DNA of 64,000 nucleotides, from NCBI GenBank assembly GCA_018266755.1, contig JAFDZW010000005.1:1315963-1379962 (forward strand). Reading direction: 5' to 3'. Below the pieces are notes generated by a model that was given only the letters and a program-made list of their open reading frames with translations, had not been told where the DNA came from and ran no database searches. Position numbers and translations under genes: made by a program. This DNA comes from Bacteroidota bacterium (GTDB lineage Bacteria > Bacteroidota > Ignavibacteria > Palsa-1295). This document shows positions 572 through 46,270 of this stretch, in pieces (the stretch's first letter is position 1; every line of letters begins with the position of its first letter).

Positions 572-3232
572 ATGGCTCAGCAAAAAACGACTTCGTCGCC
601 GAAAAAACAGCGTTCACTCGATGAGATCCGCACCTCCGACTCCTCCTCAGGCTCGGGAATGATCCCAGAGAAATTCCGGACTCCGCTTGCTATCGTCGCG
701 CTCCTTGGCGCCATTCTAATCTTCTTCGGTGGCGTCCTCTCGAAAGATAAGACCTTTAGCGCCGGCGATAATATCGCCAGTGATGCGATCGTCCCGTATC
801 TCAAGGCGGCGCAGGCTGCGGGGACGAGCGTCCCGCAGTGGATCCCGAATATTTTTTGCGGCATGCCGTCGTTCGCATCGCTGCTTTCGACCGGCGCCCG
901 TACGTACGATATCGTGCACGAAGCCTTCAGCCTCGTGCAAAGCGCAGCAGTCGCGATCTTCGGCGGCAACGATGCGATGATCTACATCTGGTGCTACTTC
1001 ATCTTCGGCGTCGGGATGTATCTGCTGATGCGGCTCACCAGGCGATCGTCGCATCTTGTTGGCGTCTTTGCCGGCATTGCCGCCATGTTCTCGACATGGA
1101 TCATTACCTACATCATGATCGGGCATAACACCAAAGTGTTTGCCGTCATGTGTTTTCCATATATCCTCTTAGCGCTCGAAAAGCTCCGCGAAGAAAAGCT
1201 CACATGGCAGCGAATGGTGTTTTGGTATTCGGTCTTTGCGGTCGCCGTACACTTCTTGCTCGAGTCGTCGCACGTGCAGATGGCGTTCTATCAATTCCTC
1301 GCCATCCTGATCTATTTCATCGTATGGCTCGTGAGCGACCTGACCGGCAAGCGTAATATTCTGAACGTCGCACGCACGGGCGTGATCTCGCTGGTGATGG
1401 TGGGGCTTGCATTCGCGATGTCGGCCGATCGCTACCTTGCGACACTTGGCTACGATTCGTACTCCATCCGCGGCGCTGCGCCGCTCGTCGATCGTGCAAC
1501 GCTTGAAGGCGGTGCCGCAGCGAAAGCAAATGCGAGCACCGGCACGACCTCCGGCGGCGGTCTCGATTGGAATTACGCAACCGAGTACTCGTTCTCGCCG
1601 GCGGAGATGATTACCTTCCTCGTTCCGGGTTGGTATGGCTTCGGCAAGTTGTCATACAGCGGCCCCGAGGTATCGGTCGAGACAAAAGTCCCGACCTACT
1701 GGGGCCAGGCGACGATGACCGACTGCGCAAACTACACCGGCACGATCGTGTTCTTTCTCGCGCTGCTTTCGATGCTTGCGCTCTGGAAGCGCGACCGACT
1801 CGTGGCCCCACTCGGGGTCATTAGTATCGTCGCACTACTGATTTCGTTCGGCTCGACGATGCCGTTGTTGTTCAGGCCGATGTTCAACTACTTCCCGACC
1901 TTCAATAAATTTCGTGCGCCGATGATGGCGCTCGTGCTGATGCAGTTGTGTTTCCCCATTCTCGCCGCGATCGCGCTGCAAAAGATCATCGACGTTGTAA
2001 AAGGAACCGACGATAAGGCACTGAAGGCATCGATCACCAAGTGGACGACATACCTGATGTATGCGGCCGCCGGCTTACTCGTAGTCTTCCTGGCAGGTCG
2101 CGGGATCATCGACGGTACGCTGCGCGCAGGGATCAAAGAAAGCGGAAAACAGATAGCGACCTGGCCGGCAGGCATTCAGGACCTTGCCGTGAACACCGCG
2201 CTCAACGATGCGGCAATCTGCATGCTGCTCGCGGCCGTCGCACTCGCGACGCTTTGGATGTATCTGCGTGGAAAGATCCGTAACGCCGCCGTTCCTGCTG
2301 CCGTCGTACTCGGTCTGACCGTCATCGATCTCTGGCGCGTCGATTACCGACCGATGGACATTACCAATCGAAGCGACTACGAAGGCGCGTTCCGCGAGCA
2401 CGACTATATCAACTTCATCAAACAGGATAAGTCGCTCTTCCGTATTCTTGACGTGAACGACCCGATGTCGAACATGCCCGCTGCGTGGGGCGTACAGACC
2501 ATCTCCGGTTATCATGCCGCCAAGGTCAGGGCATTCCAGGATGTCATCGATATCACGGGCAATTATCACGGACAGATGATCGTGAATCCGTTTATGTGGA
2601 GTCTGCTCAATACGAAGTATGTGATCTACAACGGTGCCGTAGATTCGGTCGCAGGCCGCATGACTCCGGCGTTTATCTCGCAAGAACCGGCACAGGGTCA
2701 GGGAGGACAGAAGCAGCAGACGATCGTCTGGCAGAATAACTCCGTGTTGCCGCGAGCGTTTTTCGTGCGTGGATATGAAGTTAAACCGCCGAAGGAATTC
2801 CTCGACCTCATGCGCTTAGGCTCGTTCAATCCGCGCGACGTAATGTTCTTCGACAAGAAGCCGGAAGGGATGCTGCAAACATCGGAAGATGCCATCGACT
2901 CGACCGAATCGGTACAGATCGCCAAATATGAGAACGAGACGATCGAGATGAAAACCTCGTCGGCCAAGAACCGCTTGCTCTTTATGTCCGAAGTCTGGTA
3001 TCCGGCTTGGGAAGCGACCGTCGACGGCAAGCCGTTGCCGATCTACAAAGCCGACTGGGCCTTCCGCGCACTTGCCGTGCCGGCCGGTCAGCACACGATC
3101 ACGCTTACTTATCACGACAGCCGCTTCGAGAACGGCAGAATGATCTCGCTCGCGACAAACATCATCGCGATCCTCGGCCTCGTCATCGGCGTGGGCACGA
3201 CGATGAAACGGAAACGCCCGCAAGCGGAGTGA
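572..3232 (+). CDS. YfhO-family multi-pass membrane protein
   Basis: The 886-aa protein has many hydrophobic segments through about residue 590 and an extracytoplasmic-looking C-terminal domain of about 270 residues. It ends with a last transmembrane helix and a basic tail (TMKRKRPQAE). The late segment containing SEVWYPAWEATVDGKPLPIYKADW is typical of YfhO-family proteins, which are GT-C-like membrane proteins implicated in glycosylation of envelope polymers; the substrate here is unknown. An in-frame TTG at 536 would add 12 residues, but the ATG at 572 gives MAQQKTTSS and is preferred. No strong Shine-Dalgarno is visible. The gene converges on the SDR gene, with the inverted-repeat element between them. 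Confidence 0.85.
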   Translation: MAQQKTTSSPKKQRSLDEIRTSDSSSGSGMIPEKFRTPLAIVALLGAILIFFGGVLSKDKTFSAGDNIASDAIVPYLKAAQAAGTSVPQWIPNIFCGMPSFASLLSTGARTYDIVHEAFSLVQSAAVAIFGGNDAMIYIWCYFIFGVGMYLLMRLTRRSSHLVGVFAGIAAMFSTWIITYIMIGHNTKVFAVMCFPYILLALEKLREEKLTWQRMVFWYSVFAVAVHFLLESSHVQMAFYQFLAILIYFIVWLVSDLTGKRNILNVARTGVISLVMVGLAFAMSADRYLATLGYDSYSIRGAAPLVDRATLEGGAAAKANASTGTTSGGGLDWNYATEYSFSPAEMITFLVPGWYGFGKLSYSGPEVSVETKVPTYWGQATMTDCANYTGTIVFFLALLSMLALWKRDRLVAPLGVISIVALLISFGSTMPLLFRPMFNYFPTFNKFRAPMMALVLMQLCFPILAAIALQKIIDVVKGTDDKALKASITKWTTYLMYAAAGLLVVFLAGRGIIDGTLRAGIKESGKQIATWPAGIQDLAVNTALNDAAICMLLAAVALATLWMYLRGKIRNAAVPAAVVLGLTVIDLWRVDYRPMDITNRSDYEGAFREHDYINFIKQDKSLFRILDVNDPMSNMPAAWGVQTISGYHAAKVRAFQDVIDITGNYHGQMIVNPFMWSLLNTKYVIYNGAVDSVAGRMTPAFISQEPAQGQGGQKQQTIVWQNNSVLPRAFFVRGYEVKPPKEFLDLMRLGSFNPRDVMFFDKKPEGMLQTSEDAIDSTESVQIAKYENETIEMKTSSAKNRLLFMSEVWYPAWEATVDGKPLPIYKADWAFRALAVPAGQHTITLTYHDSRFENGRMISLATNIIAILGLVIGVGTTMKRKRPQAE

Positions 3233-3235
3233 GAG

Positions 3236-3270
3236 AATGTAAAATGTAAGATGTAAAATGTAAAATTGGA
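3236..3270 (+). repeat. Left 35-bp heptamer arm of the element
   Basis: Four tandem (A/G)ATGTAA heptamers followed by AATTGGA end directly against the start codon at 3271. The arm therefore also forms the 5' leader of the gene, leaving no room for a Shine-Dalgarno site beyond TTGGA. Confidence 0.85.
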
Positions 3271-3648
3271 ATGCCTTATCCGAACGACAATGTCGATATA
3301 CATGAGCGCGCATTCGAGTTTGCATCGAATATCGTGCTATTCTGTGACAAGTTGAATCAGACCCCGGGCGTCAACTGGGCGTTGGCCAATCAGTTGGTAC
3401 GCGCCGGGACATCGATTGGCGCGAACATTGAGGAAGCCCAAGCAGGACAAAGCAAGGCCGACTTCATTGCGAAGTTAGCGATTGCGCTGAAGGAAAGTCG
3501 GGAAAGTAATTACTGGCTTCGTTTGATCGCACGAACCCGACCTGCGTTGACCGAAGCATCAGAGCCACTTATCCAAGAATCAAGTGCATTGATGCGAATT
3601 CTCGCCGCTATCCTAAAATCCGCGCGCGACGGTGAAAAGGGACGATGA
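3271..3648 (+). CDS. Four-helix-bundle protein (S23/IVP-like)
   Basis: This 125-aa all-helical protein belongs to the four helix bundle family first known from intervening sequences of 23S rRNA genes. Recognisable features are the N-terminal FEFASNIVLFCDKLNQ segment, the central NWALANQLVRAGTSIGANIEEA block and the ESRESNYWLRLI segment. The family is about 115-130 aa and its members form oligomeric bundles with a basic surface; biochemical function is not established for most. The gene fills the space between two inverted 35-bp heptamer arms. It has no operon partner: the upstream YfhO gene ends 38 bp earlier and the downstream SDR gene converges on it. Confidence 0.88.
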   Translation: MPYPNDNVDIHERAFEFASNIVLFCDKLNQTPGVNWALANQLVRAGTSIGANIEEAQAGQSKADFIAKLAIALKESRESNYWLRLIARTRPALTEASEPLIQESSALMRILAAILKSARDGEKGR

Positions 3649-3654
3649 CCGCAT

Positions 3655-3689
3655 CCCAATTTTACATTTTACATTCTACATTTTACATT
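3655..3689 (-). repeat. Right 35-bp heptamer arm of the element
   Basis: CCCAATT followed by four TTACATT-type heptamers, one of them CTACATT. It is the near-perfect reverse complement of the left arm. It ends 7 bp before the stop of the convergent SDR gene. Confidence 0.85.
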
Positions 3690-3696
3690 CCCGCGG

Positions 3697-4470
3697 CTAC
3701 GCCCGGTGTACGACCGACGAGCTTCCCTGCGAAGTCGGGAAAATTATAATCTCCGCGATCTGAACGTGTGCAGGACGGGAAGCTGTCCAGACGACGGCAT
3801 CTGCGATGTCCTCGCCAGCTAATGGCTTGAAGCCTTTGTAGACAGTTGCGGCGCGTTCTTTGTCACCGTGAAAGCGTACCTCGGAGAACTCCGTCTCGAC
3901 GAGGCCCGGATCGACCGTCGTCACGCGCAGCGGCGTATCGACGAGGTCGAGACGCAACCCCTTCGTGATCGCATCGACCGCATGCTTCGACGCACAGTAC
4001 ACATTGCCGCGTGGATAGACCTCGTGCCCGGCGATCGAGCCGATATTGATAATGTGCCCCTTCCCACGTTCGACCATCCACGGCACGACAGTACGCGTGA
4101 CATAGAGCAAGCCCTTCACGTTCGTGTCGAGCATCTCTTCCCAGTCTTCGACGAGGCCCTCGTAGAGCTTGTCGAGTCCGCGCGAAAGGCCGGCGTTGTT
4201 GACGAGGATGTCAATATCCTTCCATTCGTCGGGCAGTGTGTTAAGCGATTCTTCGACGGCTTCGCGGTCGCGCACATCGAGCTCGAAGGCATGAATGTTC
4301 ATGCCGTGATGTGCTGCCTCGAGCTCTTGCTTCAAACCGGCAAGCCGCTCTCCGCGACGCGCACAGATCAGAAGCGCTGCGCCTTCACGAGCGAATGCAT
4401 GCGCACACGCTCGGCCAATGCCGCTCGACGCGCCGGTGATGAAGACGGTTTGGTTTGTCAAGTTATTCAT
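3697..4470 (-). CDS. ydfG: SDR oxidoreductase, YdfG-like (NADP-dependent 3-hydroxy acid dehydrogenase type)
   Basis: The 257-aa protein is a classical short-chain dehydrogenase. The nucleotide-binding TGASSGIG lies at residues 12-19, followed by NNAG, a GHIINIGSIAG strand and the catalytic YCASK. The run from IDILVNNAG through VEDWEEMLDTNVKGL and the LVETEFSEVRF block strongly resembles E. coli YdfG, which oxidises L-allo-threonine, serine and related 3-hydroxy acids with NADP. An upstream TTG at 4524 would add 18 residues, but the ATG at 4470 places the Rossmann strand at the usual distance from the N-terminus. The gene stands alone, transcribed leftward toward the four-helix-bundle element. 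Exact substrate is inferred from family resemblance. Confidence 0.82.
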   Translation of the reverse strand: MNNLTNQTVFITGASSGIGRACAHAFAREGAALLICARRGERLAGLKQELEAAHHGMNIHAFELDVRDREAVEESLNTLPDEWKDIDILVNNAGLSRGLDKLYEGLVEDWEEMLDTNVKGLLYVTRTVVPWMVERGKGHIINIGSIAGHEVYPRGNVYCASKHAVDAITKGLRLDLVDTPLRVTTVDPGLVETEFSEVRFHGDKERAATVYKGFKPLAGEDIADAVVWTASRPAHVQIAEIIIFPTSQGSSSVVHRA

Positions 4471-7655: not shown

Positions 7656-7863
7656 GTCATTCTGAGCGAAGCGAAGAATCCCTTCGGCGGAGCCGCAGCA
7701 TGCCCAAGACCAGTGGCACGGAATCTTAGTCCGTGCTCTTTCGGACACCACGAACATTCGGTTCGCCCTTTACCCCGCCTGTCATTCTGAGCGAAGCGAA
7801 GAATCCCTTCGACGGAGCCCCACAGGGTTTCAGCAAGGGATTCTTCGCTTCGCTCAGAATGAC
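7656..7863. repeat. Dispersed repeats with a 29-bp palindrome
   Basis: The gene-free stretch 7531-7921 is mostly repeat. A type A copy lies at 7656-7684. A second copy at 7781-7809 is followed after 25 bp by its exact inverse at 7835-7863, giving a hairpin with 29-bp arms. Between the copies lies a slightly diverged type B hairpin (about 7716-7736) with the adjacent 'GAACATTCGGTTCGCCC' sequence also seen at base 25-45 and 228-246. The cluster lies upstream of hmgA and downstream of the ompA-like gene. No ORF here looks coding. Confidence 0.85.
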
Positions 7864-25724: not shown

Positions 25725-25807
25725 GTCATCCTGAGCATCGCGAAGGATCCCTGTGGCGGAGCCTCACTGCGTTTGATCGAGGGATTCTTCGCGTTGTTCA
25801 GAATGAC
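25725..25807. repeat. Diverged copy of dispersed repeat A (hairpin form)
   Basis: GTCATCCTGAGCATCGCGAA at one end and the inverted 'GGGATTCTTCGCGTTGTTCA' at the other flank an interior of about 30 bp, the same fold-back plan as 7781-7863. The rest of 25626-25908 shows no gene; it holds the upstream regions of ffs (leftward) and of the MFS gene (rightward). Confidence 0.7.
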
Positions 25808-28311: not shown

Positions 28312-28319
28312 GGCGTGGA

Positions 28320-28443
28320 AATGTAAAATGTAAAATGTAAAATGTAAAATGAGAAGAAAGTCCTCTGAAGATCAATGTGCATTGGAAGATCGGTACATAA
28401 CCGTGGGTCCCAATTTTACATTGTACATCTTACATTTTACATT
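28320..28443. repeat. Gene-less copy of the heptamer inverted-repeat element
   Basis: The left arm 28320-28354 is four AATGTAA heptamers plus AATGAGA. The right arm 28409-28443 is CCCAATT, TTACATT, GTACATC, TTACATT, TTACATT. The arms are inverted and separated by only 54 bp with no coding potential, against 384 bp with a four-helix-bundle gene at 3236-3689. It occupies most of the gap between topA and ispF. Read either way it can fold into a long A/T-rich hairpin. Confidence 0.85.
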
Positions 28444-38280: not shown

Positions 38281-40605
38281 ATGAGTAAACTGCTGATTTT
38301 GTTCAGTATCTTAGTTATTAGCTCATCTGCGCTCGCACAAACTGGACATCCGGTGCAAATCGACGATGGAGCTGGCCACATTTCCCTTATTCACGCCCCA
38401 GGATCAGGACCGCTCGATTTTACGCTGCCAAGCGGTGGCGGTATGCTTCTAACCACCGCAAGCGCAAGCAATGCCTTTTGGGCTCTCGGTGGTAACTCGA
38501 GCCCGTCGTCCAATCTGCTCGGTACTACCACTGCAGATCCGATAAACTTCATCACGGGCACCGGCGGTCCGAATACCCGCATGACGATCGGCGCGACCGG
38601 CAATGTCTCGATCGTCTCGGCAAACTTCTCGATCGGCGGTATTGCGTATGTATGGCCGAATGCACAGGCCGCATCGTCAAACTACGTTCTAACGAACGAT
38701 GGGACGGGAAATCTGAGCTGGACGCTCGGTGGCGCAAACGGCCCAGCTGGTGGCGACCTTACGGGGACCTATCCGAACCCGACGATTGCAAACAGTGCGG
38801 TCACGAGCGCGAAGATCGCCGATGGCACGATCGTCGATGCCGATGTTTCGCCGACGGCTGCGATTGCATATTCCAAGCTCGCACTGACGAACTCGATCCA
38901 AAATGCAGATATCGTCGCCAACGCCATCACGACCTCGAAGGTCGCCAACGGTACGGTGACGACGAGCAAAATGGCCGACAGCGCGATCACCGGGTTGAAA
39001 CTGCTCACCAAGGCAGTCACTCCGAACCACATGAACATGACCGGTTCGAGCTCGGGCGATGTCTTGACGAACGTTGGCGGCAACGCTGCATGGACTGCAC
39101 CGGCGAGCGTCCCACCGAGCGGCCCCGCAGGCGGTTCGCTTGCTGGCACCTATCCGAACCCGACCATCGCGGCCGGTGCGATTACCAACACGGAAGTTGC
39201 TGCCGGCGCTGCAATTGCCTACAGCAAGCTCAGTCTCACCAACTCGATCCAAAACTCCGACATCGTCGCCAACGCCATCACGACCTCGAAGGTCGCTAAC
39301 GGTACCGTGACGACGAGCAAAATGGCCGACAGCGCGATCACCGGGTTGAAGCTGCTGACCAAAGCAGTCACTCCGAACCACATGAACATGACCGGTTCGA
39401 GCTCGGGAGATGTTTTGACGAACGTCGGCGGTAATGCTGCTTGGACTGCACCGGCGAGCGTCCCACCGAGTGGCGCTGCAGGCGGTTCGCTTGCTGGCAC
39501 CTATCCGAACCCGACGATCGCAGCAGGTGCGATTACCAACACGGAAGTTGCTGCTGCAGCAGGAATTGTCTATAGCAAGCTCAATCTCACCAACTCGATC
39601 CAGAACGCCGACATCGTCGCCAATGCGATTACGACGTCGAAGGTCGCCAACGGTACGGTGACGACCAGCAAAATGGCCGACAGTGCGATCAGCGGGCTGA
39701 AGCTGCTCACCAAGGCAGTCACTCCGAACCATATGAACATGACCGGTTCGAGCTCGGGCGATGTTTTGACGAACGTCGGCGGTAATGCTGCGTGGACCGC
39801 ACCGGCCGGGCCGAGCGGAGCTGCCGGCGGTGATCTGAGCGGTACCTATCCGAATCCCACTGTTTCGAAGATCAATGGCAACACAGTCCCAGCGAACGCT
39901 GCAGGCGTGCTGACAAATAACGGTACGGGCACACTGACCTGGGCACCCGGTGGCGGCGGCTCTCCGGCAGGAGCGAATACCGAGGTGCAATTCAACAACT
40001 CCGGGGCCTTTGGCTCTTCTTCGAATTTTACGTTCGTCTCAGGTACGGCGCTGACGTCGACCAACACAAATCTCGTGCTCGCGAACAACAATAATACCGC
40101 GACGCAACTGAAGTTCGCAGAACCAAGCGGTTCGGGCGCGAATGTGACCGCGTTTAAGGCACAGGCACAGTCGGCGGACATTACCTACACGCTGCCGAGT
40201 GCTGCACCGACGGCCGCCAATCAAGTGCTGCAGGCGCAGTCGGTGTCTGGCAATAACGCGACACTCGCGTGGGGAAGCATTAGCGGCGGTTCGATCCAGT
40301 TCAGCCGGACGGGCGTGATAGCCAACGCCGGTAATACCAGTTATAACGTCCAGAATGGCGACGACATCGTCGGTGTCGATATGTCTGCCGGAACGAATTT
40401 TACGGTGAACCTGCAAGCCGCGAATACTTCTGGAAAGATCATTATCATCAAGATCGAGAAGTATAACAACGCACTACTTCCCGTACTGACGATTCAGCCG
40501 AATGGAACGGATAAGATCGACGGCAATAATAACCTCGCCTTCGGAAACGCCGGTGGTAACCGTCGTCTTTATTCCGACGGCGCCGGCAACTGGTACGCCT
40601 GGTAA
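38281..40605 (+). CDS. Secreted YPNPT-repeat surface protein
   Basis: The 774-aa protein has a signal peptide (LLILFSILVISSSALAQ). After an N-terminal beta-rich region come three long repeats and a fourth partial one, each opening with G(P/A)AGG(D/S)L(T/A/S)GTYPNPT and continuing with short 'NADIVANAITTSKVANGTV' type beta turns ending at NVGGNAAWTAP. This looks like a fibrous, triple-beta-helix type protein as in phage tail fibres and bacterial surface fibres. The C-terminal about 250 residues are non-repetitive (TEVQFNNSGAFGSSSNF, then TLPSAAPTAANQVLQAQ, then FGNAGGNRRLYSDGAGNWYAW). No T9SS domain is evident. A tail-collar cluster lies next to it. Confidence 0.75.
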   Translation: MSKLLILFSILVISSSALAQTGHPVQIDDGAGHISLIHAPGSGPLDFTLPSGGGMLLTTASASNAFWALGGNSSPSSNLLGTTTADPINFITGTGGPNTRMTIGATGNVSIVSANFSIGGIAYVWPNAQAASSNYVLTNDGTGNLSWTLGGANGPAGGDLTGTYPNPTIANSAVTSAKIADGTIVDADVSPTAAIAYSKLALTNSIQNADIVANAITTSKVANGTVTTSKMADSAITGLKLLTKAVTPNHMNMTGSSSGDVLTNVGGNAAWTAPASVPPSGPAGGSLAGTYPNPTIAAGAITNTEVAAGAAIAYSKLSLTNSIQNSDIVANAITTSKVANGTVTTSKMADSAITGLKLLTKAVTPNHMNMTGSSSGDVLTNVGGNAAWTAPASVPPSGAAGGSLAGTYPNPTIAAGAITNTEVAAAAGIVYSKLNLTNSIQNADIVANAITTSKVANGTVTTSKMADSAISGLKLLTKAVTPNHMNMTGSSSGDVLTNVGGNAAWTAPAGPSGAAGGDLSGTYPNPTVSKINGNTVPANAAGVLTNNGTGTLTWAPGGGGSPAGANTEVQFNNSGAFGSSSNFTFVSGTALTSTNTNLVLANNNNTATQLKFAEPSGSGANVTAFKAQAQSADITYTLPSAAPTAANQVLQAQSVSGNNATLAWGSISGGSIQFSRTGVIANAGNTSYNVQNGDDIVGVDMSAGTNFTVNLQAANTSGKIIIIKIEKYNNALLPVLTIQPNGTDKIDGNNNLAFGNAGGNRRLYSDGAGNWYAW
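38740..39816 (+). repeat. Three long in-frame direct repeats in the YPNPT gene
   Basis: Units begin at 38740 (381 bp), 39121 (351 bp) and 39472 (345 bp), with a truncated fourth from 39817. The second halves are nearly identical in DNA, including synonymous positions, which implies recent duplication or gene conversion. The first unit carries a 10-residue insertion. Copy-number change by recombination is likely. Confidence 0.9.
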
Positions 40606-46169: not shown

Positions 46170-46270
46170 GTCATTCTGACCAAAGCGAAGAATCCCTCGA
46201 TGAGACGTAGTCAGTCTCAACCACAAAGATTCTTCGCAGACTGCAGACAGAGTATGTCCTCAGAATAACT
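46170..46270. repeat. Diverged dispersed repeat A pair
   Basis: GTCATTCTGACCAAAGCGAA opens the unit and an inverted GATTCTTCGCAGACTG...TCAGAATAAC closes it. It sits in the ubiE/TetR divergent intergenic region, whose remaining bases hold the TetR operator and the leader of the efflux operon. Confidence 0.7.

Follow-up and report, generated by a model that had tools for sequence, protein, structure and literature searches.

A probable autonomous small mobile element made of inverted seven-nucleotide arrays and one four-helix-bundle gene

The window described here is the whole 64,000-nucleotide stretch of DNA that was analysed, taken from a Bacteroidota genome of 3.55 Mb that is 100% complete (G000 below). 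Close to its start, a YfhO-like gene (stop at 3232) faces a convergent SDR gene (stop at 3697), and the gap between the two is filled by a short open reading frame enclosed by inverted arrays of the word AATGTAA; the left array starts 3 bp after the first stop and the right array ends 7 bp before the second. Another pair of arrays in the window, overlooked in the preliminary description of this DNA, encloses no gene. The features are as follows:

3235..3274, + strand, left terminal inverted repeat: AATGTAA heptamer array at 3236-3266, followed by ATTGGAATGC, which includes the start codon
3271..3648, + strand, ORF of 125 aa, four-helix-bundle protein (23S rRNA IVP / S23p), assigned by PF05635, TIGR02436, the AF2 model and fold matches
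3651..3690, - strand, right terminal inverted repeat: heptamer array at 3659-3689 in inverted orientation
28319..28351, + strand, left heptamer array of a mini-element that lacks a gene and uses the focal word (AATGTAA); the orthologous site in G001 is without it
28352..28412, no strand, mini-element interior of 61 bp without a gene (RNA fold z -3.8)
28413..28443, - strand, right heptamer array of the mini-element, found by tandem-repeat and inverted-pair detection

Tandem-repeat detection on the window assigned a period of 7, 4.4 copies and 91% matches to each of the two focal arrays, and the inverted pair that contains them is 40 nt long and 93% complementary. Scanning the window for ATGTAAAATGTAA with at most one mismatch returned 11 matches against 0.01 expected, which rules out chance as the origin of the arrays; all 11 lie within the focal pair and the second pair at 28319-28443. 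With arrays, arms and ORF thus located, the central claim of the preliminary description, a gene bracketed by inverted heptamer arrays, is borne out. Its finer geometry requires some revision. Five 7-bp units had been assigned to each arm, of which four are good and the fifth is degenerate. The left arm had been said to touch the start codon; the array itself stops 4 bp short of the ATG, and it is the inverted repeat that continues through it (ATTGGRATGC). The right arm had been placed 6 bp after the stop, which is incorrect, as the array begins 10 bp and the inverted repeat 2 bp past it.

The encoded protein matches PF05635 (1.8e-19; 70.3 bits, curated cut-off 33.8) and TIGR02436 (9e-25; 87 bits, cut-off 24), confirming the suggested link to proteins of 23S rRNA intervening sequences (IVSs); profile searches of the gene did not identify a Y1 transposase. 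An AF2 model predicts four helices (pLDDT 90), and its best fold matches are 2RLD and 2GSC, followed by Avd from DGR ribonucleoproteins (8UB7, 4DWL). Both the 2RLD and 2GSC entries contain five chains, and PMC4990558, citing Lin 2006, describes 2GSC as a toroidal homopentamer. The focal protein probably forms a pentamer that recognizes the arms, a proposal for which there are no binding data.

Elsewhere in G000 the same word recurs. AATGTAA arrays occupy 14 sites in this genome, including five inverted pairs, one of which holds a gene. In several solo arrays ATTGGG(ATGC), the motif on the inner side of the focal arms, is preserved, a pattern that deletion derivatives should show. A reversed-pattern control is uninformative for these scans, since AATGTAA is the same word when read backwards. 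Four PF05635 genes, the focal one included, are present: two of the others carry arms with different words (AGTAACG and AGTGCTT), and in the last (L033; G000:C5:411199-411513) there are no arms and the S, N and E conserved in the family motif have been lost. Among the related genomes of family f1, AATGTAA arrays are confined to G000, G002 and G006, the three in which the focal protein has homologs with 47% identity or more; two of the other genomes in the family are incomplete. The nearest homolog (61%, in G002) lies between AATGTAA arms beside a tRNA-like sequence, that is, at another site. AGTGCTK arrays have a distribution of their own, inverted mini pairs included, and as a second test of whether arrays follow the protein they are consistent, if untidy. 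Gene-less copies of a word are scattered in genomes that hold the matching type of protein.

The association between gene and arms was then surveyed in 170 PF05635 genes from many phyla, comprising 95 class loci (from G000 and 60 relatives) and 75 loci from organism-named genomes. Arms were scored by local alignment of the upstream flank to the reverse-complemented downstream flank (score at least 25), with mispaired flanks as the null. They were detected in 81% of the class loci (null 3.9%) and in 64% of the named loci, again from many phyla (null 3.8%), leaving 19-36% of PF05635 genes without clear arms. The expectation that homologous genes should carry such arms, on which the preliminary description had staked its idea of an element, is therefore met. 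Over the 95 loci, the best-window self-match peaked at lag 7 (0.65, compared with about 0.43), was echoed at lags 14 and 21 and stayed at about 0.41-0.48 for other lags, and the lag-7 signal recurred in the named loci across many phyla. The named sample was collected by a narrow alignment search and is thus biased towards one PF05635 clade. RAYT genes from the same genomes served as controls: inverted repeats flank 71% of them, with lag 7 at background. At these RAYT (Y1) loci (L289-L328), the genes sit within GC-rich REP palindromes, which are common in this class; RAYT/REP is a separate, ordinary system. A connection between arms and an intact S...N..E motif was rejected, as genes with and without arms did not differ in this respect (p 0.61).

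Among elements with a clear period, 82 of 106 have a period of 7, 22 of 8 and two of 9, and most arrays contain 4-5 units. An element shares its period with its nearest protein relative at a rate of 0.83, compared with 0.64 by permutation; for elements with a period other than 7, the values are 0.63 and 0.18. The excess of shared periods among close relatives holds across phyla as well. The repeat period thus follows the protein clade. The word itself changes from element to element, while the two arms of any one element match (0.80 vs 0.46); read towards the gene, arms are poor in C (11%). Word similarity between elements depends only weakly on protein identity (Mantel r 0.11), and the notion that the protein sets the unit word was rejected. 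For the same reason, recognition of a specific word is unsupported, the support extending only to period and pairing, and it is these, rather than sequence, that the arms seem to keep. Ten Bacteroidota loci at the sdhA/sdhB junction illustrate the point (L166, L168, L176, L181, L182, L190, L210, L217, L228 and L237, around positions 2470-2900). Here the PF05635 gene directly follows the stop of the succinate dehydrogenase/fumarate reductase flavoprotein gene and precedes that of the iron-sulfur subunit; words differ widely among hosts, and the arms within each copy usually match. This pattern reflects either old residence with concerted change of the arms or a recurrent target. The preliminary description did not anticipate a word that varies in almost every element while the period stays, the tracking of protein clade by period or the bacteria-wide spread of the class.

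Comparison of occupied and empty sites provides the evidence for movement. On a conserved Nostoc plasmid segment carrying hyp1, hyp2 and hyp3, L251, L252 and L255 have an element where hyp1 meets hyp2, L163 has a different one where hyp2 meets hyp3, and L253, L254 and L258 have neither, with flanks that are 91-95% identical. At a TraM junction on Nostoc plasmids, L164 and L249 carry an element, L247 and L248 have none, and L250 retains a remnant without a gene; at an nrdB/nrdA junction, L160 carries an element and L257 does not. All of these Nostoc insertions are located at gene boundaries, and no consistent target duplication was seen when occupied and empty Nostoc junctions were compared, with precision limited by the use of one genome per species. 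A single element was also found at three unrelated sites (L251, L330 and L332), its copies being 78-82% identical, and the identity extends exactly from one outer array edge to the other. Arms and gene therefore move as one unit whose edges are the array ends. In G001 and G005, the gene pair orthologous to the one around the focal element has no insertion, and the orthologous G001 site lacks the mini-element at 28319-28443 (about 70-76% identity in each case). Empty sites, the other check that had been proposed, thus exist in Nostoc plasmids and, at lower identity, in G001 and G005 for the focal element. If the mark of a mobile element is that one unit recurs at several sites with unchanged edges and that unoccupied sites exist, the cyanobacterial members qualify, and the focal element does so at lower identity. 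Together with the armed homologues, the empty sites support the suggestion of a discrete insertion unit without a transposase.

Several known systems share parts of this design. PMC4990558 describes the Coxiella burnetii 23S IVS as 428 nt long, with a terminal stem, an S23p ORF and excision by RNase III, and with GACAGAT heptamers in tandem immediately ahead of the start codon, their number varying among strains. It also mentions that Ralph and McClelland (1993) had proposed the IVS to be a mobile element, present or past. Such IVSs (in Coxiella, and also in Leptospira) share with the focal element the protein family, a stem around one ORF and a similar length, and in the Coxiella case heptamers next to the start codon as well. 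By its published description, the sequence itself not having been compared, the Coxiella IVS is of the same design as the focal element. The focal element differs in that it lies between ordinary YfhO-like and SDR genes, is dispersed and has gene-less copies; exact-motif searches found no 23S rRNA around the scanned PF05635 loci. Our findings support the view of the IVS as a mobile element and extend it beyond rRNA. Dispersed heptameric arrays, usually of about four units as in the focal class, are likewise on record: PMC4692102 and PMC4679880 list GGGAATC in Xanthomonas, where convergent inverted pairs are frequent, GGGGA(C/T)T in Nostoc, Calothrix STRRs and TAACTGA in Beggiatoaceae. Those papers connect the arrays with no gene family, and in the open-access literature we found no paper linking heptamer repeats to PF05635. 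REPIN/RAYT systems also combine a gene flanked by inverted hairpin repeats with dispersed gene-less copies; however, RAYT is a catalytic Y1 transposase among GC-rich REP palindromes without period 7, whereas the focal flanks are heptamer arrays. DGRs share the four-helix-bundle fold through Avd (8UB7, 4DWL) and differ in having a reverse transcriptase, for which G000 gave no RVT_1 match. MITEs and insertion sequences have terminal inverted repeats, precise edges and mobility in common with the focal class, which, unlike them, has no transposase gene, no clear target duplication and arms that are tandem arrays of a changing word.

The mobility of the element is well supported, as is the connection between its arms and its protein. 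We regard the locus, with good though not complete confidence, as an autonomous small mobile element composed of inverted 7-nt arrays and one four-helix-bundle gene, its pentamer binding and hairpin route being inferred. Were the gene instead a static one with a cellular role, its arms would be slippage-made spacer or a regulatory hairpin; some copies do appear long-lived, such as those at the sdhA/sdhB junction, the arms are predicted to form RNA stems and L033 lacks arms altogether. This reading is already contradicted by the empty sites and by the element at three unrelated sites with its edges at the arrays, unless precise deletions have recurred, and gene-less copies elsewhere also weigh against it; we find it hardly credible. 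A trans-acting Y1/HUH transposase (RAYT, IS200/IS605) that recognizes the hairpin arms, with the protein as an accessory, could draw on the Y1 genes present in 49 of the 61 genomes and on the resemblance of the mini-element layout to REPINs. Yet those Y1 genes have GC-rich REP palindromes of their own without period 7, and the nearly complete G016, G024 and G025 hold 8, 3 and 2 copies without any Y1 match. Y1/RAYT was rejected as the mover on account of its flanks, and this possibility is decidedly unlikely.

Movement through RNA deserves somewhat more weight, while remaining improbable. Here, the protein would bind the hairpin RNA after its excision, much as Avd forms part of DGR ribonucleoproteins, and the RNA would be reverse transcribed by an enzyme supplied in trans and then inserted. 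The Avd-like focal fold, a predicted hairpin RNA and the RNase III excision of the 23S IVS (PMC4990558) all point in this direction, as does a sense orientation bias: 118 of 167 elements are co-directional with both neighbours and 14 are antisense to both, the neighbours being taken from simple, rough ORF calls. This bias may equally result from selection for expression. Against the route stands the absence of any RVT_1 match in G000 (100% complete) and in genomes with 15, 12, 10, 9 and 9 copies; a reverse transcriptase in the same genome is thus not needed as the mover.

For the autonomous element that we favour, a mechanism can be outlined, largely by inference. Elements, if transcribed, are predicted to fold into a single hairpin (z -7.2; -3.8 to -9.8 for mini-elements), and the arms could adopt this form whenever a strand is single, be it RNA or DNA at a fork. 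On an arm that is single-stranded or in hairpin form, each subunit of a pentamer would bind one unit, so that about five consecutive units would be covered; the protein would act, both in cis and in trans, on arms whose period is the right one. In RNA, the predicted stem would probably be cut by RNase III, as published for 23S IVSs, so that insertion between operon genes would cost the host little. New copies would probably be made when the host's replication or repair machinery acts on a hairpin to which the protein is bound, because the element has no nuclease or transposase gene and a resident reverse transcriptase is not required. Copying by this specific route is tentative, its chances falling a little short of even, and neither a target duplication nor any enzyme indicates a chemistry. 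The 23S rRNA intervening sequences with a PF05635 ORF would be the same element with a ribosomal target.

Taken more broadly, we lean slightly towards a bacteria-wide class of mobile elements without a catalytic gene, in which a pentamer uses the 7- or 8-nt period of the paired arms as a ruler and spread depends on host replication or repair; this class would be a frequent source of bacterial heptamer repeats and of 23S IVSs. The class probably accounts for some bacterial seven-base repeats and 23S rRNA intervening sequences, with the Xanthomonas and cyanobacterial STRR words as yet untraced to PF05635. Three loose ends would thereby be joined: the over-representation of heptamers, the origin of 23S IVSs and the role of a very common protein family of unknown function. 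A mobile element without a catalytic protein, whose drifting arms keep pairing and period, would also offer a testbed for the recognition of repeats by proteins.

The PF05635 family has been reported in cas loci and near DGRs (PMC3936711 and PMC10053308, respectively). On plasmid pANA02 of Anabaena sp. 90 (L329), cas6 and cas4 have between them a PF05635 gene whose arms repeat GTGACAG, and, with this case in mind, the reported CRISPR/cas and DGR associations may in part be element insertions. An element of the PF05635 type, likewise with arms of heptamers, is present on plasmid AZO_p2 of Azospirillum lipoferum 4B (L333), in a stretch for which no gene is listed. Within the window, GGGATTCTTCGCNTNGCTCAGAATGAC is another dispersed repeat, with seven copies, partly in inverted pairs (133-159, 7656-7682, 7781-7807, 7837-7863, 25725-25751, 25781-25807 and 46170-46196), and positions 38890-39806 hold a tandem repeat with a unit of 351 bp (2.6 copies, 91% matches).
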